Virus record (IMG/VR): IMGVR_UViG_3300032285_001058
Location: 1-20,153 of that record
Source: a virus
Reading direction: 5' to 3' (one strand)
DNA length: 20,153 bases
The first letter of the stretch is position 1. Each line of letters begins with the position of its first letter. Both the position numbers and the translations under genes were made by a program. The notes under the pieces were generated by a model that saw only the letters and a list, made by a program, of their open reading frames with translations, searched no databases and was not told the DNA's origin. Below are positions 1 through 17,920 of this stretch, in pieces.

Positions 1-1
1 C

Positions 2-625
2 CCTACTGCGGTAACTGGACAGTCTTACAAGGATACTCTGTCAAACAGCACTGCTGTCCGTAACATTGGTTACACAAACAACGGTCTTGAACTAACCTTC
101 ACACCAACCTTTGGTGACGTTGTTGTTGATCAGCTACTGGACGTAGCAAAGCTTTACAAGTCAGGTATGCAGGTAACTCTAAAGACTTCATTCGCTGAAG
201 CAACTCTAGAAAACCTTCTCGTTGCAATCGGTCAGAAGGGTTCAGTATTGAACTCAACTGCTACTGGTAGCACTTGGACAGAAACTCTGATTGGTACTCC
301 AACTGGTACTTCAGGTTCAAGCACTACTGCTGCAACTAACGCTGCTGGAAGCTACATTGACATTCTTTCAGGTGATCTAGGTGACTACCCTGTAGAGCGT
401 AGCATCGTTGCTGTTGGTCCTGGACCAATCGGTAACAACGCTAACATTCCAGACAGCAACATCACAAGTCAGAAAGAGCGTGTCTACATCGGCTACCGTG
501 CAGTTTCAATTACTAACGTAACTGTTGCTGCAAAGCGTGATGCTGCGACTATGTTCGACGTTGAATTCCGTCTACTACCATTGGATAATGGTGTTTACGG
601 TAAGATCGTTGACCGCACATTCTAA
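2..625 (+). CDS. Probable major tail (tube) protein, 5' end missing
   Basis: The reading frame is open from the first complete codon of the window to TAA at 623-625, giving 207 residues of a protein that starts upstream. The ATG at 167 is an internal methionine, since the frame before it is open and reads as similar protein. The identification rests on position (directly before tail chaperones and tape measure, the standard siphovirus order), on a Thr/Ser/Gly/Val-rich beta-type composition, and on a C-terminal stretch ending in FRLLPLDNGVYGKIVDRTF that fits tail tube proteins. As tube subunit it would polymerise into the tail tube. All seven arginine codons are CGT or CGC, unlike the AGA-rich tail-tip genes downstream, which suits a very highly expressed structural protein. 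An intrinsic terminator follows. A capsid decoration protein is a less likely alternative. Confidence 0.72.
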   Translation, partial: PTAVTGQSYKDTLSNSTAVRNIGYTNNGLELTFTPTFGDVVVDQLLDVAKLYKSGMQVTLKTSFAEATLENLLVAIGQKGSVLNSTATGSTWTETLIGTPTGTSGSSTTAATNAAGSYIDILSGDLGDYPVERSIVAVGPGPIGNNANIPDSNITSQKERVYIGYRAVSITNVTVAAKRDAATMFDVEFRLLPLDNGVYGKIVDRTF

Positions 626-641
626 TAACTAAATAGTTGAG

Positions 642-677
642 ACTGCCCTGGGGTGACCTGGGGCAGTTTCTTTTTTT
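642..677 (+). terminator. Intrinsic terminator after the major tail protein gene
   Basis: ACTGCCC at 642-648 pairs with GGGCAGT at 661-667, a 7-bp GC-rich stem around a 12-base loop. It is followed immediately by a T-rich run (TTTCTTTTTTT, 667-677). It sits 16 bases after the TAA of the probable major tail protein gene. It should insulate the chaperone and tape measure genes from the high transcription expected for that gene. The T-run directly abuts the next promoter. Confidence 0.85.
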
Positions 678-685
678 GGTATACT
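677..685 (+). promoter_or_regulatory. Extended -10 promoter, leaderless start for the long chaperone
   Basis: TGGTATACT (677-685) matches the extended -10 pattern TGnTATAAT with one change (C for A at the fifth position of the hexamer). I see no -35 box at 16-18 bp upstream, as is common for extended -10 promoters. Six bases separate the box from the ATG at 692, so transcription would begin at or next to the A of ATG. No Shine-Dalgarno sequence exists between the terminator and the ATG, consistent with a leaderless mRNA. Confidence 0.62.
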
Positions 686-691
686 TATAGA

Positions 692-1393
692 ATGACCACT
701 ACAGTTTATAAAGAAGAAACAATAAAGTTAATTGATGGAACAGAGTTAGAACTGTCACCACTAAAAATTAAGTATCTTAAAGAGTTTATGGATACATTTA
801 AAATGGCACAACTAAATTCTCAAAGTCAGGACGATGCACTTGACGCATTGATTGCATGTGTAAGGATAGCAATGAAACAATTTTGTCCATCCATCAAAAC
901 GGCGGAAGACGTAGAAGATAATTTTGATATGAAAACAATGTATAGGGTTCTTAATATTGTTGCAGGAATTAAAATGGGTGAGCAAACAGAGGGTCAGCAG
1001 GTAGTAGACTCAACAGCCCAAGCCGCAGCTGAAAAATCATCATGGGAAGACCTTGACCTAGCAAAGATAGAGTCAGAAGTATTTATCATGGGGATGTGGA
1101 AAAATTATGACGAACTGGAAAGAAGCATGTCTATGCCAGAGTTACTAATAACACTTGAGACTAGCCGAGAGCTTGACTATAATGAAAAACGATTCTTGGC
1201 TGCAATGCAGGGTGTAGATCTTGACGAAGAACTTGGAACCAAAGAGCCAGATGCATGGGAAGCCATGAAAGCCAGGGTAGCTACAAATGGTCTAACTAGT
1301 GATCCTAATGATATTGTATCCTATCAAGGTATTCGTGCTGCTCAGTCTGGATTTGGAATTGGCATGGGGCTTGAATACGCAACAGAGCTATAG
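692..1393 (+). CDS. Tail assembly chaperone, long (GT-like) form
   Basis: This encodes 233 residues. The first ~95 form a chaperone domain paralogous to the product of the next gene, sharing LxDGT, PLKI, FMxxF, CVxxAMxQ, YxVhxxxxGIKhG in the same order. Residues ~114-233 are an extra acidic helical extension with FIMGMWKNYDELERSMSMPE and LDYNEKRFLAAMQGVDLDEE, which resembles the T part of siphovirus G/GT chaperones that contacts tail tube subunits. Placement between the major tail protein and tape measure genes fits. A GTG at 653 would add 13 residues but lies inside the terminator hairpin, so I chose the ATG at 692, which follows a -10 box at leaderless distance. Arginine codons are mostly AGG, AGA and CGA, suggesting modest expression. 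The T-domain assignment is inference from pattern and position. Confidence 0.78.
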   Translation: MTTTVYKEETIKLIDGTELELSPLKIKYLKEFMDTFKMAQLNSQSQDDALDALIACVRIAMKQFCPSIKTAEDVEDNFDMKTMYRVLNIVAGIKMGEQTEGQQVVDSTAQAAAEKSSWEDLDLAKIESEVFIMGMWKNYDELERSMSMPELLITLETSRELDYNEKRFLAAMQGVDLDEELGTKEPDAWEAMKARVATNGLTSDPNDIVSYQGIRAAQSGFGIGMGLEYATEL

Positions 1394-1399
1394 CCTTTA

Positions 1400-1408
1400 T
1401 GTTATAAT
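1400..1408 (+). promoter_or_regulatory. Consensus extended -10 promoter for the short chaperone
   Basis: TGTTATAAT (1400-1408) is a perfect TGnTATAAT extended -10 element just after the TAG of the long chaperone gene. No good -35 hexamer is seen at 16-18 bp. The expected start near 1415 leaves an ~18-base leader that includes a strong Shine-Dalgarno. This promoter is closer to consensus than the one before the long chaperone. Confidence 0.62.
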
Positions 1409-1421
1409 TATTAAGTCTAAC

Positions 1422-1429
1422 AAGGAGGA
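1422..1429 (+). promoter_or_regulatory. Strong ribosome binding site of the short chaperone
   Basis: AAGGAGGA (1422-1429) is a near-complete anti-16S complement, three bases before the ATG at 1433 (six if the core AGGAG is counted). It is among the strongest Shine-Dalgarno sequences in the window. It contrasts with the long chaperone, which has none, and it fixes the start codon of the short chaperone. Confidence 0.8.
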
Positions 1430-1432
1430 CAA

Positions 1433-1750
1433 ATGAGTATTACAGTAACAGAAGAGCAGCAGCTAACGCTGCTTGACGGTACAACTTTCGTTGCACGACC
1501 ACTAAAGATTTCACTACTTCGTAAATTTATGAAGGCATTTGATGGAATCGCAGAAGTGTCTGCAGATAATGACAAGTCAATGGACTTGCTAATCAAGTGC
1601 GTTCAGGTAGCTATGGAGCAGTATGCCCCAGAGGTTGCAGCAGACGCAGCAAAAATGGAAGATCTTCTAGACCTTCCTACTGTATACAAGGTCATTGAGG
1701 CTGCGTCAGGCATCAAGCTTGGCGATTCAGGTCTACCTGGCATTGTCTAA
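1433..1750 (+). CDS. Tail assembly chaperone, short (G-like) form
   Basis: This 105-residue protein consists only of the chaperone domain and aligns along nearly its whole length with residues 1 to ~95 of the preceding product. Shared signatures include DGT, PLKI, FMxxF, CVxxAMxQ and GIKhG. It corresponds to lambda gpG-type chaperones that coat the tape measure protein in several copies before tube polymerisation. It has its own promoter and a strong Shine-Dalgarno, so it is probably made in excess over the long form. The gene ends 27 bases before the tape measure start, leaving no room for a separate T-coding overlap in another frame. The usual programmed -1 frameshift therefore does not apply here. 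The family assignment is confident from context and paralogy, and the stoichiometry is inference. Confidence 0.8.
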   Translation: MSITVTEEQQLTLLDGTTFVARPLKISLLRKFMKAFDGIAEVSADNDKSMDLLIKCVQVAMEQYAPEVAADAAKMEDLLDLPTVYKVIEAASGIKLGDSGLPGIV

Positions 1751-1777: not shown

Positions 1778-4700
1778 ATGGCTGAGGAAATTCAGTCCAA
1801 TATTAGAGTTAATATTGATACTGCTGGTGCTCTAGCAGGATTGAAGCTTCTCCAGAAGGAGATCTCAGCCTTTCATACACAAATGTCAAAGGCAGGAGCC
1901 GCTTCAGCGGCTACCTCTGCTCAAATGGGCAGTAACCTAGTAAATACTATTAATCAAACTGGCAAATTTGCAGCCAGCATGACAACTGTAAAGACAAGTG
2001 CTCAAGCATTTACTACAGCACTTGAAAAGAACCAACTGTCGATGGGACAGTATTTTCGTTATGCAGCAGGTGCATCAAAAAGTTTCGGTAAACAGTTTGC
2101 CACTGAATTTAATACAATTCAAAACGTAGCCATTGAAAGAGTAAAAAGCTTACAGACCCAATATATCAAAATGGGTACTGCCGCTAATGGTGCAATTACA
2201 GCAATCAAAGTAAGACCACTTACCCTTGACATGGAAAACCTTGGCACAAGAACTATGATTGCTGCTCAAAGGCAGCAACTGCTTAACCAAATGCTTGACC
2301 TTGGATCTACTAAACTTCTAAACTTTGGTAAAAATATGCAATGGGCAGGTCGCCAACTCATGGTTGGTTTCACAGTTCCACTTACAATGTTTGCTGCATC
2401 AGCAATGAATTCTTACAAGCAGATTGAAGCAGAGCGTGTTCAACTTACTCGTGTTTATGGAACATTTGAGACAACTGCCGCCGAGGCAAATCGTGCTGCA
2501 GATTCAGTACAGAAACTTGCTAGCCAATATACTGCGTATGGTCTTGCTGTTAAAGATACAATGGCTCTTGGTGCTACTGTCGCAGCTGCTGGTGCTACAG
2601 GAAAAGATTTAACAGAGCAGGTTGCTGCATCTAGCAAGCTTGCTGTTCTTGGTAGAATGTCTCAAGATGAAGCATTCAAGAGCATCATGGTTCTTAAAAA
2701 TGCTTTTCATTTAAGTGGTCAGGGTCTTACAAATACCATCGGTTTAATGAATGCTACTCAAAACCAAACAGTTAACTCTATTCAAGACATTACAGAAGCA
2801 ACCATCAAAGCTGGACCAGTAGTTCAAGCACTTGGTGGAAATATGAGCGATTTGTTATTCTTCACAACAGCAATGCGTGAAGGTGGCATCTCTGCAAGTC
2901 AGGGTGCTAACGCTCTAAAGTCAGCACTCGCATCCATGATTAATCCAACAGCAAAAGCTGCTGCCACTCTAAAGGGAATGGGTATTGATCTAAATGGAAT
3001 TGTTCAGCAAGACAAGGGTAATCTTCGTCAAACAGTAATGGATTTTGGTCAGGCATTAGATAAACTTGACCCACTAAAACGAGCACAAGCACTTGAAACA
3101 TTGTTTGGTAAGTTCCAGTTTGCTCGTGTATCAGCACTTTTTAATAACATTAACCGAGCAGGTAGCCAAGCTTCTGCGGTAGCAGGACTCGGAAATGCTT
3201 CATCTAAGCAACTACAAGACCTGATGGATAGAGAAATGAAGAAAGTTTCTGATTCACCTCTATACAAATTCCAAAAACAACTAGCAGACTTCCAGGCAGC
3301 TATGGCTCCAATTGGTGAACAGTTTATGAAGTTCCTAACCCCAATTATGAAATTCTTTACTGATTTGGCAAAGGGATTCCAAAATCTTCCAGATGGAATG
3401 AAACAGGCAATTGTTGGTATATCTGTAATTCTTGGTGGAGTGGCTCCGCTAGTGTTAATGCTTGTTGGTCTTATCTCCAACGGTGCTGCCAACATGATGA
3501 AGTTCTTAGTAACTATTAAAAAATTCTTTAATGGCTTGACATCTGGATCACAAATTCTTGGTGAACAAGTAAGATACATGAGCACAGCAGAAATTGATGC
3601 CGCTGCCGAAGCAGCATCCCTTGATCAAATTCATCAAAAGCTAGTGCAAACATTTACAGTTGAGGCAGAAGCGGTTGATCTACTTGCAGCAGCATATGAA
3701 AGGGCAGCATTTGCTGCTAGAAGTTTTGGTCCAATGCCAGGAATGGCTTCAGCAGCAGCAGCAGAAGCAGCAGTTATCAAGGGATATAGTGCAAGTTCAA
3801 GAAATGCAATTCGTGGAATTCAAGGATATGCCGAAGGTGGAATTCTTAAAGGTCCAGGAACTGGGACTAGCGATTCTATGGTTGCTCGTGTATCTACTGG
3901 CGAAGCCATTATTCCAGCGGCATCTGTAAAGAAAAATCCAGACGTAGTCAATGCACTTATTAGTGGAGACATGCCAGGATATGCTGGTGGATATGTTCCA
4001 CCGTTTACCTCTGCATATAAATCAGAAGCCAAACTAGCATACGAAGCAGAGCAACGCAGACTTGCAGAGATTCGTGCAAATAGCCCAGAAGGCAAGGCAT
4101 TAGCCCTAAAGCGTCAGCAAGCAGCAAAAGAAAGAATGTCCAAGCTATTCCTATATGATCCATTGATTGCTGGAGTGCTTGATGAAAATAGTCCAGTTGC
4201 ACACAGAATGCTAATTGATCAAAATGTTGGAAAGCTTGGATTTGTTACTCCTAGAACAGATCTACAGTTTGTCTCATCTCCAGAGCACACCTTGATGCGT
4301 AGACTTGGAATGAGAGCCAACCGTTGGCGCACAGTTAAACCAGGCGACAACTCTTGGCTAGGAAAATATTTTAATGTAAGTGAGTATGGTCCACTTGGAG
4401 AAATTGTTAGACGATTTGCTAATGGTGGAATTGTTAATGGTCCAGGAACTGGAACTAGTGATTCTGTTGTAGCCAGAGTTTCAAATGGTGAAGCAATTAT
4501 TCCTGCAGAATCTGTTAACAAAAATCCAGATGTAGTTTCTGCACTTGTATCTGGAAATATGCCAGCATATAGCACAGGCAAAATGCCAGATGGAATTCAA
4601 ATTTCACGAACAGATGCAATGGAACAAGGTCACCTTGGAACAGCAATTGAAAGAACTGCCGAAGAGTTCAATAAATTTGTTGATGAATTAGTTAAAACTA

Positions 4701-7700
4701 ATAGAGCAACAGAAGAAGAAGCGGCAAAGATGAAAGATCTTCAAGCCAGGGCACTCAAGAATGAAGAAGAAAGACTTAGAAAACAAAATCCAGAAATGTC
4801 GAATGCACAAATTTCGGATGCTGCATCTAAAACTAAATTTAAAAATTACAATGAGTTGACTGCTCTACAACCAGCAAAATGGAATAACCTGGGGGATCAA
4901 AGTAAAATTCCTGGAGGCGTTGCTGCAGTTTCAAAGGTATACGATGTGGCTGGTGCAAAAGATCAGTATGCAAACTTTACAAGACACTTTAAAGATGCTG
5001 GAATGGAACTATCTGAAGTCGATGAAATTATAACTTTGGCTGGAGAAAAATTTAGGGAATCTGTAGCTGCATTGGGTCAAGATGCTGAAATTACTAAAGA
5101 ACAACTTGAAAAAATTCAGATGGAGTCAATTTCTAGTGCTGCTGCAACAAATCCTATTGCTGCAAAAGAAATTCAAAGAATGGAAGACCAGGTTCACACC
5201 ATTGGTCGTCCAGGAAACGGAAGATCTGGATACAGCAGAATGTCAACAGATGAGTCATATAGAATTAATGCTCAAGAAAATATGGCAGCCCATGCAGCAG
5301 TTACTGGTCAAGAAAATTCATTTAATTATGCTGGAAGATCCAGTGCTCCAAGAGAATTTAAGAATGTGCTTCAAAGTGCACAGGCAATGGGTGGAGACAC
5401 AGAAGCCAGAGCAAATCAAATTGTTTCAGAACTTGAAAAAGACAAAACTCGCATGTCTCAACTTTTTATTGAGCTTCAGGAACTTGTTCCCGAAAGTGTT
5501 AATCTAGCATCTGAAGCTGCTTCGCCATCCAAAAAAGCTGCAATGCAAGCTGGTAAAAATATTTCAGATGGTGCAATGCTTGGTATTCAGGAAGGTCTTT
5601 CTACAACACAAACTACTGTGGCAACAGCAATGGAAGAAGTTGGTTCATCAATCGCCACAAATACAATGTCTTGGGCAGAGTGGAAGGCTGCTGTAGCATC
5701 AGCCTCAGCCTCACTTGATGTTGCAGCTGCAGATCAAATTCTTTATGAAGAAATTATGAAGCAAATGTCTACAGCCATTAGGACAACTATTCCTGCTGCA
5801 GAAACGTTGGATGAAAAACTTCAGCTATTGACTTTGGCTGGCGGAGAGTTTGGTGAAATGGCACTAAAAGCTTCGGCACAACTTGAAAGAGGTGGTTCTG
5901 GTATTGAACTTGGAACCAACATAGCAACCAAGGCTTTTGATGATTATGTCATAAAAATGCAGGCTCAAATGGTAGCCGAAGAAGAACTTGCAAATATGAC
6001 AACGCTTGATGCAGAAGCCCTACAGGCATTTATCGCTGAATTCGGGGCATTGCATCCAATGATTACTGCAATGAGAACTGGAACAAGTCAGGCTATGTCA
6101 AGAGCTAAAGAAGCCAACGATCCAGGAATGTATCAAACTGTTAATCGAAGAGGTGAAGAATTAAAGGCTTATGCCTATAACAGAGCACCAGTTGATGAGA
6201 TGGATGAATCTCCTCGTACACAGGCTCCCAAGTTTACACAGGCATTGCCATCATCACAACAACCAGTTGTGACAGCAGCACAAGGAACTGTAGCAACATT
6301 TGCAGAAACAGTACAAACAGAGTCTAAGGTAGAAATGCCAGTCGTTGCTGGAACAGTTGTTCAAGAAATGGTCACAGCAGTTGAGGCATCTATTCCAGAA
6401 ATTTCTGTGGCAGCAGAAACACTTGTTACAGCAATGTCCGAACCAATTATCGCATCTGCTCCAGAAATTGCAGCAATTGGTAACGGAATGTCGCTATCAA
6501 TTTCAGAACCACTTAAGGTGGCAGCAGCAGAAGTACAATCGTTTGGTACATATAGCCAGGGAACAATGCAACATGTCACTGAACAAATCTCAAAAATGCT
6601 AAATGGAATTAGCGAAAATGGAGTTATCAGTATAGAAAATCTAAACAAGGCATATTTAAAAAATGTTGAACTTGTTAATGGAGCTATTACTGCTGAAGAT
6701 ATTAGAAACATTAATCTTCGTGAAGGTGTTCAATTACTTGAACTTGCAAATGCGCCAATGAATATGTTATATGGTGCAATTGAAAAAATTGGAGCCGCAT
6801 CGGAGCAGATCTTGCCAATGCTTACATCTGCTGGAGAAAGACTACAAATTGAATTTATTAAAGTAAGCAACAGCCTTGAGCAATTAGCAACTGCTGGAAT
6901 TGCTACAGCAACAAAATTTGGAGTTGCAGCAAAAGAAATGGCTATTACTGCTGGAACTGCTGTGAAAAATGCTGCAGTAGCCACTGGAACATATTTAACA
7001 ACTGCTCAACCAAATAGAATTTCTCAATCATTGAGGACCAAACAAGCCAACTTAAGAGGTGACAATGGTGCACAAGCTCAGGCTGGTGCTCGTGGCGGTG
7101 GCGGCAAGGGAATGATGGCAACTATGGGATTGATGATGGTAACTGGTATGCTATCTGGAGTAAAGGGACCGCTTGGAGATTTTGCAAATTTCCTTCAACC
7201 AGTCCTTATGGGTCTATCCGTAATGTCTATGATTTTGCCATTACTTACTGCAGAACAGACAACAGCTATGGTTGGTCTTGGAGCAGCAATGATGGAGTTT
7301 ATTGTTCCAATCATGGCAGTAATTGCAGTTATTGGATTGCTAGTGTTGGCATTTAATCTTGTAGCCGATCAAGCCAAGAAAGATGCAGAAAAAACAGCAG
7401 CAGCAAATAGAAAAGCTGCAGATGCAATTGTTGGATTCGGTTCTGCACTTGGTGCTTCAAAAGATCAAATACAAAACTTTAATGATACCTTCCAAACTAA
7501 TCTAGGTGGTTCTGCAATGACAGAATCTCATATTGCTACTACTGGTTCTGGATATCATCCTGTTGTTCAAACAAACGAAGACCTACAAAAAACTAACCAG
7601 CTAGTCGGTGACGAAAACTTTAAGAGTGCAAACTCTAATCTTATCGATCAACTAAAAAAGGCTAAAGGTGCTCAGGGTAATGTTCTTATAAACTCATTTG

Positions 7701-9571
7701 CACAGACACTAAAATCACAAGGTGCAGCAGACAAAGATATTTCACTATATGTAGAAGCATTGAAAAAGTCTGCATCAAGACAAGACCTACAACTTGATTT
7801 TAAAACACTTGACATTGGCTCTAAACTTGGTCAGGCTCAAATGGAAGAACAAATTAAAAATAGTGTAAAACAATTTACTAGACTATCTAAGATATATTCT
7901 CCAGAAGTGCTTGCTCAAGGAGAACAACTTAGTTCTAATGCCTCAAGTGTGCACGGATTAAGTGCAAAATCCTATGTTTCAAAAATTAAAAAGATTGGCA
8001 CTGGGGAAGATACGGCAGATGCAAGAAATGCATATAGAGATCAAATCCTAAATCAACTTAAAGAAAATACCGATTTCCAACAATATATGGCTACCTACTC
8101 AGCACCAATTGCTGGTTCTGGTGGTGCTTTTGGTTTAAATGGTGCTAAGAAGAGAACCGTTGATGAAAACATTGCAATCTTTAAGAAAAACTCTGCTGGT
8201 CAAGATAATAATGAAAACAGCGATTTTGCAAAAATGATTACCGCAGTTTCAGGAAGCTCTAATGCTAATCTAAAAGCTTTTACAGATAGTGGAAAAATGT
8301 CTGCAGGAGACCTTCAAATTATGAGCACACAGGCACAAATGTCTGCAACTGATATTACAAATCTTGGAACGGCATTTAAAAATGGTCAGGTAAATGTACA
8401 TGACTTTAACAAAGACATGAAAATGATTGGTGATACAATCTCAACATTGGGAGCAGCAAAGGGAAATAACTACATCAACTCTATTGTAGACTCAATGAAA
8501 GATTTGGATACAGGAACTAAGACAGCGATCAAGGGACTGTCTGTCATGGGTGACAAGATGCTACTGATTAAAGCTGCAAGTCTTGGAATTAACATCGATC
8601 CAGAAGTAGTTAAGGCAATTTCTGCTGGTGAGGCAGCACAGCAACAATTAAAGAACAACCCAAACATGACTGGTCAAGGTGCTACAATATTGGCAAATCA
8701 GGTAGCAGCTATGGAATCAGCAAAGGGCGGACTGACACAGTCAATTACTGACATGATGAATGCAACTGCAAAAGCCGCAGAGGCAGCCAAAACACCACTT
8801 GATAAAATTAATGAAAAGTATCAAAAGCAAAAAGACCTACTTGATGCAGAAAGCACACTGCTTGGAAAAGTTCAGTCTAAGATTGAGGCAGCTTATAAGA
8901 AACGCATCGATGCTCTTAATACAATTTCTAAAATTAACGAAACCATTGCCCAATCTCAAAGAGATCAACTTAGCCTAGCAACCGCTCTCTCTCAGGGTGA
9001 TATTGCACAAGCAGCGGCAGCAGCTCAAACAATGAGAGCAAACAATGCTAAGAATGCACTAGATCAACAGGCTTCAGCCCTGCAAGCCCAATCTGACCGT
9101 GCAGTAGCCTCAGCAACAATTACCTATAAGGGCAAGAAGCTTAATCAGTCACAGATTGATGCTGCTAAGGAAAAAGCCGATACCGCCAACTTGCTAGCAA
9201 ATAACCCTGGTCTTGGATATTCTATTGGAGGATATGTAACTGGTTATGCTACTGGTGGAATGGTTGCTCCAAAGTATTTTGCAGATGGCGATTTGGCAAA
9301 AGGCACAGACATTATTCCAGCAATGCTTACACCAGGAGAATTTGTTATGACTAAATCTACTGTAGATAGAATTGGGGCTAGCAATCTTTCTGCAATAAAT
9401 AGTGGAGGATCTGTAAATTCTGGTTCGGAAAGCGAGGGTTCAGTGTATAATTATAGTGTGAACGTTAATGTTGCTACTGGAGCCAACCCAGAAGAAATTG
9501 CAAACGCTGTAATCAAGAAGGTTGAAAAACTTAACTCACAAAATCTTAGAGGGAACACATACGGAGCATGA
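1778..9571 (+). CDS. Tape measure protein, 2,597 residues
   Basis: This is by far the longest gene in the window. It sets tail length and occupies the tube lumen before DNA ejection. Residues ~210-460 match the TP901-type tape measure core (AAAGATGKDL, LMNATQNQTVNSIQDITEA, GGNMSDLLFFTTAMREGGIS). Hydrophobic segments lie near 544-575 and in a block near 1778-1863, which may enter the host membrane. A module rich in GPGTGTSDS is duplicated at 686-737 and 882-933. A related GTDIIPAMLTPGEFVM motif is at ~2509-2524. SPSK plus GKNISDGAMLGI, common in tape measures, begins at residue 1249. Much of 934-1760 is Ala/Glu/Gln-rich and helical. The C-terminal region with ALSQGDIAQAAAAAQ resembles actinobacteriophage tape measures. 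AGAAGG precedes the ATG at 1778. The ATG at 1774 is out of frame and stops at once. The stop overlaps the next start as ATGA. Confidence 0.95.
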   Translation: MAEEIQSNIRVNIDTAGALAGLKLLQKEISAFHTQMSKAGAASAATSAQMGSNLVNTINQTGKFAASMTTVKTSAQAFTTALEKNQLSMGQYFRYAAGASKSFGKQFATEFNTIQNVAIERVKSLQTQYIKMGTAANGAITAIKVRPLTLDMENLGTRTMIAAQRQQLLNQMLDLGSTKLLNFGKNMQWAGRQLMVGFTVPLTMFAASAMNSYKQIEAERVQLTRVYGTFETTAAEANRAADSVQKLASQYTAYGLAVKDTMALGATVAAAGATGKDLTEQVAASSKLAVLGRMSQDEAFKSIMVLKNAFHLSGQGLTNTIGLMNATQNQTVNSIQDITEATIKAGPVVQALGGNMSDLLFFTTAMREGGISASQGANALKSALASMINPTAKAAATLKGMGIDLNGIVQQDKGNLRQTVMDFGQALDKLDPLKRAQALETLFGKFQFARVSALFNNINRAGSQASAVAGLGNASSKQLQDLMDREMKKVSDSPLYKFQKQLADFQAAMAPIGEQFMKFLTPIMKFFTDLAKGFQNLPDGMKQAIVGISVILGGVAPLVLMLVGLISNGAANMMKFLVTIKKFFNGLTSGSQILGEQVRYMSTAEIDAAAEAASLDQIHQKLVQTFTVEAEAVDLLAAAYERAAFAARSFGPMPGMASAAAAEAAVIKGYSASSRNAIRGIQGYAEGGILKGPGTGTSDSMVARVSTGEAIIPAASVKKNPDVVNALISGDMPGYAGGYVPPFTSAYKSEAKLAYEAEQRRLAEIRANSPEGKALALKRQQAAKERMSKLFLYDPLIAGVLDENSPVAHRMLIDQNVGKLGFVTPRTDLQFVSSPEHTLMRRLGMRANRWRTVKPGDNSWLGKYFNVSEYGPLGEIVRRFANGGIVNGPGTGTSDSVVARVSNGEAIIPAESVNKNPDVVSALVSGNMPAYSTGKMPDGIQISRTDAMEQGHLGTAIERTAEEFNKFVDELVKTNRATEEEAAKMKDLQARALKNEEERLRKQNPEMSNAQISDAASKTKFKNYNELTALQPAKWNNLGDQSKIPGGVAAVSKVYDVAGAKDQYANFTRHFKDAGMELSEVDEIITLAGEKFRESVAALGQDAEITKEQLEKIQMESISSAAATNPIAAKEIQRMEDQVHTIGRPGNGRSGYSRMSTDESYRINAQENMAAHAAVTGQENSFNYAGRSSAPREFKNVLQSAQAMGGDTEARANQIVSELEKDKTRMSQLFIELQELVPESVNLASEAASPSKKAAMQAGKNISDGAMLGIQEGLSTTQTTVATAMEEVGSSIATNTMSWAEWKAAVASASASLDVAAADQILYEEIMKQMSTAIRTTIPAAETLDEKLQLLTLAGGEFGEMALKASAQLERGGSGIELGTNIATKAFDDYVIKMQAQMVAEEELANMTTLDAEALQAFIAEFGALHPMITAMRTGTSQAMSRAKEANDPGMYQTVNRRGEELKAYAYNRAPVDEMDESPRTQAPKFTQALPSSQQPVVTAAQGTVATFAETVQTESKVEMPVVAGTVVQEMVTAVEASIPEISVAAETLVTAMSEPIIASAPEIAAIGNGMSLSISEPLKVAAAEVQSFGTYSQGTMQHVTEQISKMLNGISENGVISIENLNKAYLKNVELVNGAITAEDIRNINLREGVQLLELANAPMNMLYGAIEKIGAASEQILPMLTSAGERLQIEFIKVSNSLEQLATAGIATATKFGVAAKEMAITAGTAVKNAAVATGTYLTTAQPNRISQSLRTKQANLRGDNGAQAQAGARGGGGKGMMATMGLMMVTGMLSGVKGPLGDFANFLQPVLMGLSVMSMILPLLTAEQTTAMVGLGAAMMEFIVPIMAVIAVIGLLVLAFNLVADQAKKDAEKTAAANRKAADAIVGFGSALGASKDQIQNFNDTFQTNLGGSAMTESHIATTGSGYHPVVQTNEDLQKTNQLVGDENFKSANSNLIDQLKKAKGAQGNVLINSFAQTLKSQGAADKDISLYVEALKKSASRQDLQLDFKTLDIGSKLGQAQMEEQIKNSVKQFTRLSKIYSPEVLAQGEQLSSNASSVHGLSAKSYVSKIKKIGTGEDTADARNAYRDQILNQLKENTDFQQYMATYSAPIAGSGGAFGLNGAKKRTVDENIAIFKKNSAGQDNNENSDFAKMITAVSGSSNANLKAFTDSGKMSAGDLQIMSTQAQMSATDITNLGTAFKNGQVNVHDFNKDMKMIGDTISTLGAAKGNNYINSIVDSMKDLDTGTKTAIKGLSVMGDKMLLIKAASLGINIDPEVVKAISAGEAAQQQLKNNPNMTGQGATILANQVAAMESAKGGLTQSITDMMNATAKAAEAAKTPLDKINEKYQKQKDLLDAESTLLGKVQSKIEAAYKKRIDALNTISKINETIAQSQRDQLSLATALSQGDIAQAAAAAQTMRANNAKNALDQQASALQAQSDRAVASATITYKGKKLNQSQIDAAKEKADTANLLANNPGLGYSIGGYVTGYATGGMVAPKYFADGDLAKGTDIIPAMLTPGEFVMTKSTVDRIGASNLSAINSGGSVNSGSESEGSVYNYSVNVNVATGANPEEIANAVIKKVEKLNSQNLRGNTYGA
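3833..3988 (+). repeat. Tape measure internal repeat, copy 1
   Basis: This encodes residues 686-737 of the tape measure, with GGILKGPGTGTSDSMVARVS followed by GEAIIPAASVKKNPDVV and ALISGDMPGY. It aligns without gaps to copy 2, which lies exactly 588 bases (196 codons) downstream. Nucleotide divergence is mostly at third positions, so the copy is old and selected at the protein level. The motif is a Gly-rich loop plus amphipathic segment related to the GTD-PAMLTPGEFVM motif often seen near tape measure C-termini. Confidence 0.85.
4421..4576 (+). repeat. Tape measure internal repeat, copy 2
   Basis: This encodes residues 882-933, with GGIVNGPGTGTSDSVVARVS, GEAIIPAESVNKNPDVV and ALVSGNMPAY. It matches copy 1 residue for residue apart from conservative changes. 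The 144 residues between the copies are unrelated, charged and helix-prone. They include a stretch with several tryptophans and prolines near residues 850-870. The arrangement suggests that a module was duplicated together with, or around, an inserted segment. Confidence 0.85.
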
Positions 9572-15147: not shown

Positions 15148-15744
15148 ATGTCATTTATAAGTACAAATCAAGCCGATAGAGTGGCAGGAGTAAATTATTC
15201 TACAGGAATAGTCTCAGCTAAACCAGCAACAGTAACCAAGGTTGCAGTGTCAACTGCCCCCAAAGATGTTATTAAAGTTGCAACTTCAAATTTGTTTAAT
15301 TTGGGGGAACCTCCTGTTAATCCAGACACGCTGACAGATTTACTTTTTCAAGAAATGGGCGGTCAGGACATTATAAATATTTTAAGAACTGATACGGTAA
15401 ATGGGTCTTCATTTAAAAATAATGTTATAACCAATCTATCTCAAATTAATGAAAAATTTAATTCTCTTAATTTAATAACTATGTCTGGAGAAAGCTCTGG
15501 TTATTTTAAATCAATGCATTACGAACTACTTGATCACATACCAGAAGGAAAAACCTTGGTGGCTGGACTAAATCCATTACCAGTAACAGTGGTCAGCAAT
15601 GTTCCAACAAACTATTATGTTGACCCAGCAACTGGAGATATAACGTTCTACTTCTCAGGTCTATCTGATGATCAGCAAGTTCAATTTGAATTTATAGAAA
15701 TGAAGAAAAATCCAAAATCAACAGGAGGATATCCATTGATATAA
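15148..15744 (+). CDS. Small tail-tip protein of unknown family
   Basis: This encodes 198 residues, starting one base after the hub gene's stop. GGAGGT at 15131-15136 is the Shine-Dalgarno, 11 bases before the ATG. The N-terminal ~60 residues are Val/Thr/Ser-rich and look extended. The middle has an amphipathic helical stretch (DTLTDLLFQEMGGQDIINIL). The C-terminal ~80 residues are beta-rich, with NYYVDPATGDITFYFSG ending in an FEFIEMKK strand. It probably sits on the tail tip as an adaptor between hub and fibre, judged only by its position between the hub and a fibre-type gene. No catalytic motif or membrane segment is visible, and I do not recognise the family. A promoter for the next gene overlaps its last codons. 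Confidence 0.6.
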   Translation: MSFISTNQADRVAGVNYSTGIVSAKPATVTKVAVSTAPKDVIKVATSNLFNLGEPPVNPDTLTDLLFQEMGGQDIINILRTDTVNGSSFKNNVITNLSQINEKFNSLNLITMSGESSGYFKSMHYELLDHIPEGKTLVAGLNPLPVTVVSNVPTNYYVDPATGDITFYFSGLSDDQQVQFEFIEMKKNPKSTGGYPLI

Positions 15745-15753
15745 TGGTATAAT
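15737..15753 (+). promoter_or_regulatory. Two overlapping extended -10 elements, leaderless start
   Basis: TGATATAAT (15737-15745) and TGGTATAAT (15745-15753) are two perfect TGnTATAAT elements sharing one base. They lie across the stop codon of the preceding gene. The second ends seven bases before the ATG at 15761, placing the transcript start at or next to the ATG. The only purine-rich stretch (AGGAGG, about 15722-15728) is more than 30 bases away, too far to act as a ribosome site. No -35 hexamer is apparent. Confidence 0.65.
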
Positions 15754-15760
15754 AATAAAT

Positions 15761-16921
15761 ATGATTACTAATACTGGAAAAGACATTGTTTCAAAATACT
15801 TAATTGGTCAGACACCTGCCTATGCATCTTATCTTGCACTTGGCTGTGGATCAATCCCCATGAAAGAGTCTCACACCATCACTAGTGCCGAAGCTTTTGG
15901 GGTAGATGGTGTAGGGGGATTTGTGAATCAAAAAGCATTGGAGTTTGAAATGTTTAGAATTCCAATTATTTCTAGAGGGTATGTTAGCGAAAACGGAGTA
16001 TCTAAAATAATTTTTACAGGAGAACTTCCTACAACTGACAAATATAGCATTACAGAAATTGGAGTATATCCTGCCTCTAGCAATCCTGCTGCCAATATAG
16101 ACAGTTACGGAATATTCTCTTTTACTTCTGATGAAGGATGGATTTATAATAACGGTTCAGATACTGCCATTCCTTCTGTATCTGGAACGCTTGACCTATC
16201 GTCTTCTGCAACTCCAATTTTTCAAACAAACGTGGACAACGTTACCCTTAATACTGAAACAAGAAAATATAGGTATGAGCAACTAAGAATGTCTGGTAAT
16301 GGAGTGTATGTTCGTGGAGACTTTTCATCTGTAGATGTTTCTGGAAGTACGCCAACGGTCAGTGGAAATTATCTGTCGCTTTCAACTCCAAACATTAATC
16401 TTTTAAAGAGTAATCCAGAAGACGAACTTCGTTTGGCATTTTCTGTAATCAGTGCTAGTGAAGTAAACAACTCAATTCCAGATGAAGTAAGAATTGTTGT
16501 AAAGTTCCTTACTGCATCAAACTCCGAATATGCAACCATGACTAGCGTAACCTCTGGTGGTAGTTTGGTTGCAGGTGGCATTAATACTGGTAATCGGTAT
16601 ATAGTATCCAAGGTGGCTCTAGGTAGCTCAGGCTTTGATAAAACTTCTGCATTCAGCTGGGCTGCTGTAAATGCTGTAAGAGTATATATATCAACAGTTA
16701 ATGGATCATCCTCAACTTCAGATTTCTGGATTGGTCTTGACGGTTTAAGACTTGAAAATCTTTCTGATACTAGCCCACTCTATGGTTTGGTTGCATATAC
16801 TAATTTAAAAAATAGCGAATATTCAACTGTAGGTTCTGTAACGGAATACGCATCACCTGCAATCAAGCCATTGAATGCGTCTGGGTTAGTGGAGTTTAAG
16901 TTTGCACTGGATGTGAGTTAA
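15761..16921 (+). CDS. Tail fibre-type protein with C-terminal carbohydrate-binding-like domain
   Basis: This encodes 386 residues. The N-terminal ~120 residues resemble the attachment domain of many tail fibre and collar proteins: an opening ITNTGKDIVSKYLIG, YASYLALGCG, and the signature ITEIGVYPA at residues 97-105. Residues ~165-335 form a beta-rich domain with GVYVRGDFSSVDVSG, VRIVVKFLTASNSEY and a run ending in AVRVYISTVNGSS and FWIGLDGLRLEN. That run recalls carbohydrate-binding beta-sandwiches in which a Trp-flanked strand leads to a concluding LDGLxLE strand. It probably binds a host surface glycan. It has its own leaderless-type promoter and no Shine-Dalgarno, and its stop overlaps the next start by one base. 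The fibre role is inferred from the N-terminal signature and position. Confidence 0.68.
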   Translation: MITNTGKDIVSKYLIGQTPAYASYLALGCGSIPMKESHTITSAEAFGVDGVGGFVNQKALEFEMFRIPIISRGYVSENGVSKIIFTGELPTTDKYSITEIGVYPASSNPAANIDSYGIFSFTSDEGWIYNNGSDTAIPSVSGTLDLSSSATPIFQTNVDNVTLNTETRKYRYEQLRMSGNGVYVRGDFSSVDVSGSTPTVSGNYLSLSTPNINLLKSNPEDELRLAFSVISASEVNNSIPDEVRIVVKFLTASNSEYATMTSVTSGGSLVAGGINTGNRYIVSKVALGSSGFDKTSAFSWAAVNAVRVYISTVNGSSSTSDFWIGLDGLRLENLSDTSPLYGLVAYTNLKNSEYSTVGSVTEYASPAIKPLNASGLVEFKFALDVS

Positions 16922-17445: not shown

Positions 17446-17457
17446 CTTGTGCTATAA
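17435..17457 (+). repeat. Inverted repeat overlapping the next promoter
   Basis: TTATAGC (17435-17441) and GCTATAA (17451-17457) are perfect 7-base inverted arms around a 9-base loop. The left arm covers the last codons of the FN3-like gene. The right arm covers most of the -10 region of the following promoter. There is no T-run after it, so a terminator is unlikely. A protein binding here would block the promoter, so it is a candidate operator. In AT-rich DNA, chance is a real alternative. Confidence 0.4.
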
Positions 17458-17458
17458 T
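17450..17458 (+). promoter_or_regulatory. Extended -10 promoter, leaderless start for the lectin-like gene
   Basis: TGCTATAAT (17450-17458) is a perfect extended -10 element in the 22-base gap after the FN3-like gene. Nine bases separate it from the ATG at 17468, so any leader would be about 0-3 bases. No Shine-Dalgarno is present before the ATG. No clear -35 hexamer is found. Confidence 0.62.
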
Positions 17459-17467
17459 TAACTTACT

Positions 17468-17920
17468 ATGGCAACTATTCCAGTACCTCAGCGTGGTCAA
17501 CCAATTGACTTTAATTATATTTATACAATTGTGCAATCATTAAACGAACTAAGTTCGTCAATTGCCAATCAATCCAAACACATGAACTTTACTCACAGTG
17601 ATGGTACACAAGAAAGTATGGATGCCTCTACTATGGCGATAGATATTGCTCATCAAACTGTGGTCGGAACATCGGTATCTACAACTAAGCCATTTACAGG
17701 AACCTACCAGTTTAAAACAAAATTTAAAGCAACTCCGATTGTAACAATTACTGTTGTTCAAAATAATACCAGTGCTGGAAATGATGATGCCATTGTTCAG
17801 ATTACCAATACATCAGCCTCTCAGGTTGACTATCAAGTTGCATTTCCTGGGGCAAAGGCTAAGGCTGCTGCATCTGTTAGCGTAAATCTAATTGCTATTG
17901 GTTTAGCACAAAACAGTTAA
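17468..17920 (+). CDS. H-type-lectin-like tail protein
   Basis: This encodes 150 residues. The N-terminal ~45 residues contain a helix (FNYIYTIVQSLNELSSSIAN) that could form a trimeric coiled coil or attach to the tip. The C-terminal ~85 residues have the pattern of the H-type lectin fold: a strand before FKTKFKATPIVTITVVQ, a Ser/Asn-rich loop, VQITNTSASQVDYQVAF and a final VNLIAIG strand. Many phage tail proteins end in such a domain, which binds sugars. It is a good candidate for a short receptor-binding tip protein. It is transcribed from its own leaderless-type promoter, unlike most neighbours, which may allow separate dosage. The lectin assignment is by strand pattern and needs a profile search. 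Confidence 0.58.
   Translation: MATIPVPQRGQPIDFNYIYTIVQSLNELSSSIANQSKHMNFTHSDGTQESMDASTMAIDIAHQTVVGTSVSTTKPFTGTYQFKTKFKATPIVTITVVQNNTSAGNDDAIVQITNTSASQVDYQVAFPGAKAKAAASVSVNLIAIGLAQNS

Follow-up and report, generated by a model that had tools for sequence, protein, structure and literature searches.

Separate long and short tail-assembly chaperone genes, long form first, in a phage clade that appears to have given up programmed frameshifting

Introduction

Lambda-type G/GT tail-assembly chaperones are reportedly made by a −1 frameshift, a finding ascribed to Xu, Hendrix and Duda in 2004. Few recoding events are as well conserved among tailed phages as the G/GT frameshift, which is usually explained as a means to fix a low GT:G ratio. 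In lambda, the −1 frameshift mechanism gives a short to long ratio of about 30:1 (review PMC5009743). Other solutions have been described as well: some T4-like phages possess one short and one fused long gene and use no frameshifting (PMC10885494, citing Vladimirov et al., 2022), and Microbacterium cluster EA phages have two chaperone ORFs that show no evident frameshift and are described as separately expressed (PMC7302621).

The locus considered here is located on a stretch of 20,153 nucleotides, positions 1 to 20,153 of the IMG/VR virus record IMGVR_UViG_3300032285_001058, which as a whole is referred to as the window. From its sequence alone, an earlier note had proposed a tail chaperone pair that is built by gene duplication instead of programmed frameshifting, with the long form first. 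Features of the locus lie on the + strand and, unless another contig is named, coordinates refer to the window.

Results

The pair is flanked by the genes for the major tail protein and the tape measure, and it is these two neighbours that identify the locus as one for tail-assembly chaperones. The upstream gene, of which the 3′ part is covered (1..625, the gene start being outside the window), matches phrog_2175 with E=1e-14 and takes the same position as the annotated major tail protein gene in the Streptomyces phages Forrest, Coruscant and BoomerJR; the downstream gene (1778..9571) codes for a tape measure protein of 2597 aa (TIGR01760 E=2e-28, PF10145 E=1e-22). The gene boundaries proposed previously were correct, with the long GT-like gene extending from ATG692 to TAG1393 (692..1393, 233 aa) and the short G-like gene from ATG1433 to TAA1750 (1433..1750, 105 aa). 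In one single frame, the long gene encodes a G domain (approximately 692-982), a variable linker and a T domain (approximately 1037-1393); the short gene is a paralogue of the G domain only, and the T-like extension is, as had been noticed, confined to the long protein. That the short protein resembles the N-terminus of the long one was borne out by an alignment of 98 aa to its residues 1-97, of which 39% are identical (BLASTP E=4e-23), and the profile-profile comparison that had been suggested as a check, with 85 long proteins set against 102 short or single G proteins, gave an hhalign probability of 99.9 at E=1e-37; at the level of sequence, the paralogy of the two proteins is confirmed. An alternate-frame T after the short gene had been reported missing, and indeed no forward-strand T relic is present up to the tape measure gene in 85 divergent loci. 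Three weak T-relic matches after the short gene, all on the reverse strand of one locus (L116), were taken as chance.

Family searches matched both chaperones to PHROGs of 'unknown function' only, and Pfam and NCBIfam gave no informative match for either protein. When the long profile was compared with PDB sequences, nearly all matches were prion proteins at E>0.2 and were attributed to chance. In AlphaFold models built from the present alignments (mean pLDDT 81.5 for the long and 74.6 for the short protein), the G domain consists of two short strands followed by helices. In a PDB fold search the short model found the HK97 tail assembly chaperone 2OB9 at ranks 1 and 2, a suggestive but not significant match (E 1.2-1.5, TM 0.36-0.44), and the long model found no relative.

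Scans of IMG/VR, with the best 80 matches kept per scan, provided 281 distinct core loci, and the survey of related phages for one-gene and two-gene forms recommended in the earlier note found both. Among these best matches, a fused GT gene followed by G is present in 238 of the 281 loci and G followed by T in 38 (including four phage records and one MAG contig), with the remaining 5 cut by contig ends; the sampling is biased to window-like sequences, and 238:38 is not a population estimate. The long-before-short order first seen in the window is constant in all 238 two-gene loci, all two-gene loci that escape truncation at a contig end include the fused long gene, and neither the opposite order nor a fused gene alone occurs in the 281 loci except at contig ends. 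An assembly or sequencing artefact is ruled out by the 238 distinct loci. One long gene (L009, 5270-5941 of its contig) misses about 8 residues of an otherwise conserved segment of the G domain before the linker.

Among 50,697 phage records, tblastn identified about 130 relatives, nearly all of them Streptomyces phages (Stanwilliamsviridae) besides a few Rhodococcus phages. Each relative has a single G place, the number of two-gene cases in these records is 0, and no fused G-T over 80% of the query is found among the relatives. Homologues are annotated as tail assembly chaperone in 127 Streptomyces and some Rhodococcus phage records, annotations which are third-party and not experimental, and in all four phage relatives examined in detail the T domain follows G in the −1 frame. 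A scan of genome contigs had a single match, a one-gene locus in a cyanobacterial MAG, and plasmids searched for the chaperones gave none. On this MAG contig (L252, approximately 4678-5282), which is either a provirus or a misbinned phage, the one-gene chaperone with slip site CCCAAAC stands beside a tail protein relative. The host may be an actinobacterium, to judge from the low G+C (39%), the leaderless starts and the cultured phages most closely related, and the two-gene phages would, judged from their relatives, be siphovirus-like with a non-contractile tail.

In the one-gene loci, T is in the −1 frame in 38 of 38 cases, and the overlap contains an X_XXY_YYZ heptamer in 36 of 38, mostly GGGAAAC besides CCCAAAT, CCCAAAC and GGGAAAA. 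A more distant one-gene group from two further scans, which partly overlaps the 38 in that some contigs are repeats of earlier ones, comprises 63 loci, all with T in the −1 frame and 54 with a heptamer (CCCAAAC 38, CCCAAAT 12, GGGAAAC 4, no canonical heptamer 9). As −1 frame and heptamers occur in sister and outgroup phages alike, frameshifting is most simply considered ancestral around the two-gene clade. The long gene of two-gene loci, on the other hand, reads through the variable linker into T in frame; the short-gene tail contains no slip heptamer in the two-gene loci inspected, and in the window neither the long nor the short gene has one. The way in which the lambda type makes its long form, with a −1 slip at a heptamer in the gene for the short form, is thus found in the one-gene relatives and not in the window, in agreement with the proposal that duplication stands in for frameshifting.

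The proposed origin by gene duplication is supported by a G tree that combines 18 two-gene loci with 10 one-gene loci of environmental origin (mostly GGGAAAC) and, as outgroup, 12 further G genes, in which each paralogue forms one clade of single origin (long G 100/99, short G 99/97). A recent local duplication is ruled out, the copies being two old clades. The best tree also joins the environmental single G to the short G with the long G outside (96/88, similar in two other trees), which speaks for a history in which the duplication predates the split from the GGGAAAC one-gene phages, these having lost the long copy and kept frameshifting. Such a history is a serious possibility, to be held tentatively, since a sister pairing of long and short G is not rejected (p-AU 0.42), the outgroup could attract the fast-evolving long G, whose stem branch measures 0.86-0.98 changes per column, and a single clade for each of the two types, two-gene and one-gene, is not rejected by trees built from the major tail protein. 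It concerns the order of events and can be compatible with the explanation preferred below. The T domain was too short for a tree to separate one-gene from two-gene forms. In the major-tail-protein tree, the row of locus L073 probably derives from a wrongly called tail protein; upstream of its single G (approximately 5840-5980), the usual major tail protein and terminator are replaced by a stretch that by eye resembles a piece of an HNH endonuclease and may have been inserted as a homing endonuclease.

Both genes are, on the sequence evidence of 62 independent pairs, under strong purifying selection, with a dN/dS of 0.066 for the long and 0.074 for the short gene. Across the same two-gene pairs, the median dS of the short gene (0.22) is far under that of the long gene (0.77), which could reflect codon selection or recombination.

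The two genes of the window are preceded by distinct start signals. Upstream of the long gene, an intrinsic terminator hairpin with a 14 bp stem followed by a T run (639..670; −26 kcal/mol, z −6.7), not mentioned in the earlier note, is followed by an extended −10 element TGG-TATACT (677..685) that ends 6 nt upstream of ATG692, with no Shine-Dalgarno sequence; the short gene has the consensus extended −10 TGT-TATAAT (1400..1408) and the Shine-Dalgarno sequence AAGGAGG (1422..1428). A terminator-like hairpin between major tail protein and long gene is present in 82 of 82 divergent two-gene loci, compared with 0 of 79 coding controls, and between the long and short genes no terminator was found in any of 85 divergent loci.

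A script that selects the best −10-like hexamer upstream of the start codon placed it 5-9 nt before the start of the long gene in 234 of 234 loci, a distance at which the mRNA would be, and probably is, leaderless. The long-gene hexamer departs from TATAAT in 206 of these loci (TATACT 81, TAGAAT 43, TAAAAT 36) and is perfect in 28, and Shine-Dalgarno matches of at least 5 nt are absent (0/234), with 4 nt reached in 11 versus 27% of random positions. The short gene, by comparison, is preceded by a perfect TATAAT in 227 of 233 loci, typically 23-29 nt upstream, by the extended TGn motif in 232 and by a Shine-Dalgarno match of at least 4 nt in 232; the G gene of one-gene loci resembles it (perfect TATAAT 26/33, Shine-Dalgarno 33/33). 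The difference in start signals that had been pointed out for the window is consequently conserved in more than 230 loci, and it is matched by codon usage. Of the one-gene loci, 31 of 33 have a TATAAT near the stop codon that precedes the tape measure gene, and of the two-gene loci only 3 of 224, so that the tape measure gene of two-gene phages appears usually to be without a promoter of its own.

Elsewhere in the window, the genes at 15761 and 17468 also look leaderless, with a perfect extended −10 (TGnTATAAT) 7-9 nt before the ATG (15737-15761 and 17450-17468) and, in the first case, two such boxes side by side at 15737 and 15745. The distinguishing mark of the long gene is therefore its weaker hexamer and not leaderlessness alone. 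Leaderless mRNAs in actinobacteria can be well translated which, together with the minority of long genes that have a perfect TATAAT, means that weak expression of the long gene is not proven.

Rare arginine codons, remarked upon for the long gene of the window, are a property of the group: AGA and AGG make up 85% of arginine codons in the long gene, 39% in the short gene and 12% in the major tail protein. Median codon adaptation, calculated relative to the major tail protein, reaches 0.474 in the G domain and 0.486 in the T domain of the long gene, 0.635 in the short G and 0.706 in the reference itself; for comparison, the tape measure has a value of 0.555 and the gene that precedes the major tail protein gene one of 0.501, and in one-gene relatives G has 0.655 and T 0.487. 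The whole long gene (approximately 0.48) thus resembles the T of one-gene relatives, which is reached by slippage only, and the short gene (approximately 0.63) resembles their G. In the window, the values are approximately 0.50 for the long gene (group median approximately 0.48) and 0.64 for the short gene, and adaptation is higher for the short than for the long gene in 220 of 226 loci, 80 of 82 when restricted to divergent ones. Mutation bias hardly accounts for this gap, since the two G domains share their origin and lie next to each other; it is an indirect sign whose simplest reading would be a lasting difference in expression. The codon bias is, as are the paralogy, the loss of the slip arrangement, the conserved signals and the selection, shown from the sequences themselves.

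Discussion

It is probable that duplication in combination with separate start signals has replaced frameshifting in these phages, with signals that point to little long and much short protein, and that the pair represents the chaperone of a long-tailed phage. In the ancestor, both forms would have been made from one gene by a −1 ribosomal slip. Upon one duplication in the clade, the first copy would have become an in-frame G-linker-T fusion, and the second would have kept the ancestral strong promoter and Shine-Dalgarno sequence and lost slip site and T region. The terminator may shield the long gene from major-tail-protein transcription, the weaker −10 would start a leaderless long mRNA with poor codons, and consensus −10 and Shine-Dalgarno sequence would drive the short gene jointly with the tape measure gene. 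By analogy with lambda, abundant short G would coat the tape measure protein and scarce long G-T would enter the tape measure complex by its G domain, with the T domain recruiting the major tail protein. Expression levels, the long:short ratio and these assembly roles are what we infer from the arrangement. It is moreover reasonably likely that a single ancestral event in a large non-contractile clade moved the setting of the ratio from the frameshift to the signals at which transcription and translation start, while a sister group survived that still frameshifts. The whole long gene would have adopted a codon usage like that of a T region reached by frameshift only, and with the loss of its own promoter the tape measure gene would share one transcript with the short gene.

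Alternatively, the ratio of a genuine two-gene chaperone might not be set by promoters, both genes being read mainly from long upstream transcripts and the balance arising from the efficiency of translation or the turnover of the proteins. The leaderless start of the long gene and its poor codons do take effect on the mRNA or in translation, and long transcripts can run into the short gene as no terminator intervenes, but the consistent terminator in front of the long gene in the divergent loci and the systematic difference between the −10 elements of the two genes render this unlikely. That the long protein is no longer equivalent to GT, but is a fused paralogue with another role next to a short protein that alone acts as chaperone, would fit the long stem branch of its G domain and is nevertheless very improbable, as the T domain has remained similar to the T that relatives encode by frameshift (45-58% identity with that of the window), the low dN/dS argues against it and the fused gene accompanies every complete two-gene locus. 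That a cryptic frameshift persists in either chaperone gene of the two-gene phages is scarcely credible, since heptamers such as AAAAAAG in some long genes vary in position by locus, the window genes have none and no T reading frame follows the short gene.

With duplication and separate start signals as the preferred explanation, a well-populated clade has given up the frameshift beside relatives that keep it. The low codon adaptation of the long gene and its weaker start signals suggest that selection maintains the low ratio and not the slip itself, and the standing question whether tail assembly needs frameshifting or stoichiometry alone becomes testable. For annotation, a fused 'GT' gene is not necessarily a sequencing error, and its short partner can lie downstream.

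In common with the lambda-type G/GT, the pair consists of a short G and a long G-T that begin with a common N-terminal domain and whose genes separate the major tail protein gene from that of the tape measure. The lambda-type layout is kept by the one-gene relatives of the window with their slip sites GGGAAAC, CCCAAAC or CCCAAAT, whereas the window and 237 other loci have two separate genes, an in-frame fusion and no slip site and, as had been claimed for the window, differ from lambda also in order, the long gene coming first and each gene having its own start signals. The Stanwilliamsviridae phages Forrest, Coruscant and BoomerJR, as the closest cultured relatives of both domains, share the surrounding gene order, but in them G is present in a single copy and T follows in the −1 frame of this one gene. 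Lack of an evident frameshift is shared with the Microbacterium cluster EA phages, for which the passage concerned does not mention a fused long paralogue (PMC7302621). A tandem long-first pair with frameshifting sister phages was not found described in the literature searched, from which subscription papers were mostly absent.

Genes 26 and 51 of T4, presumably its chaperone pair, are weakly similar to each other (BLASTP E=2e-6) and divergently oriented, and gp26 itself has 208 aa. That short and fused long forms can be encoded by separate genes has already been reported for T4-like phages, and the present case shares this separation. T4 has a contractile tail and divergent genes; here the genes are in tandem with the long one first and belong to a clade with frameshifting sister phages and a conserved asymmetry of start signals and codons.
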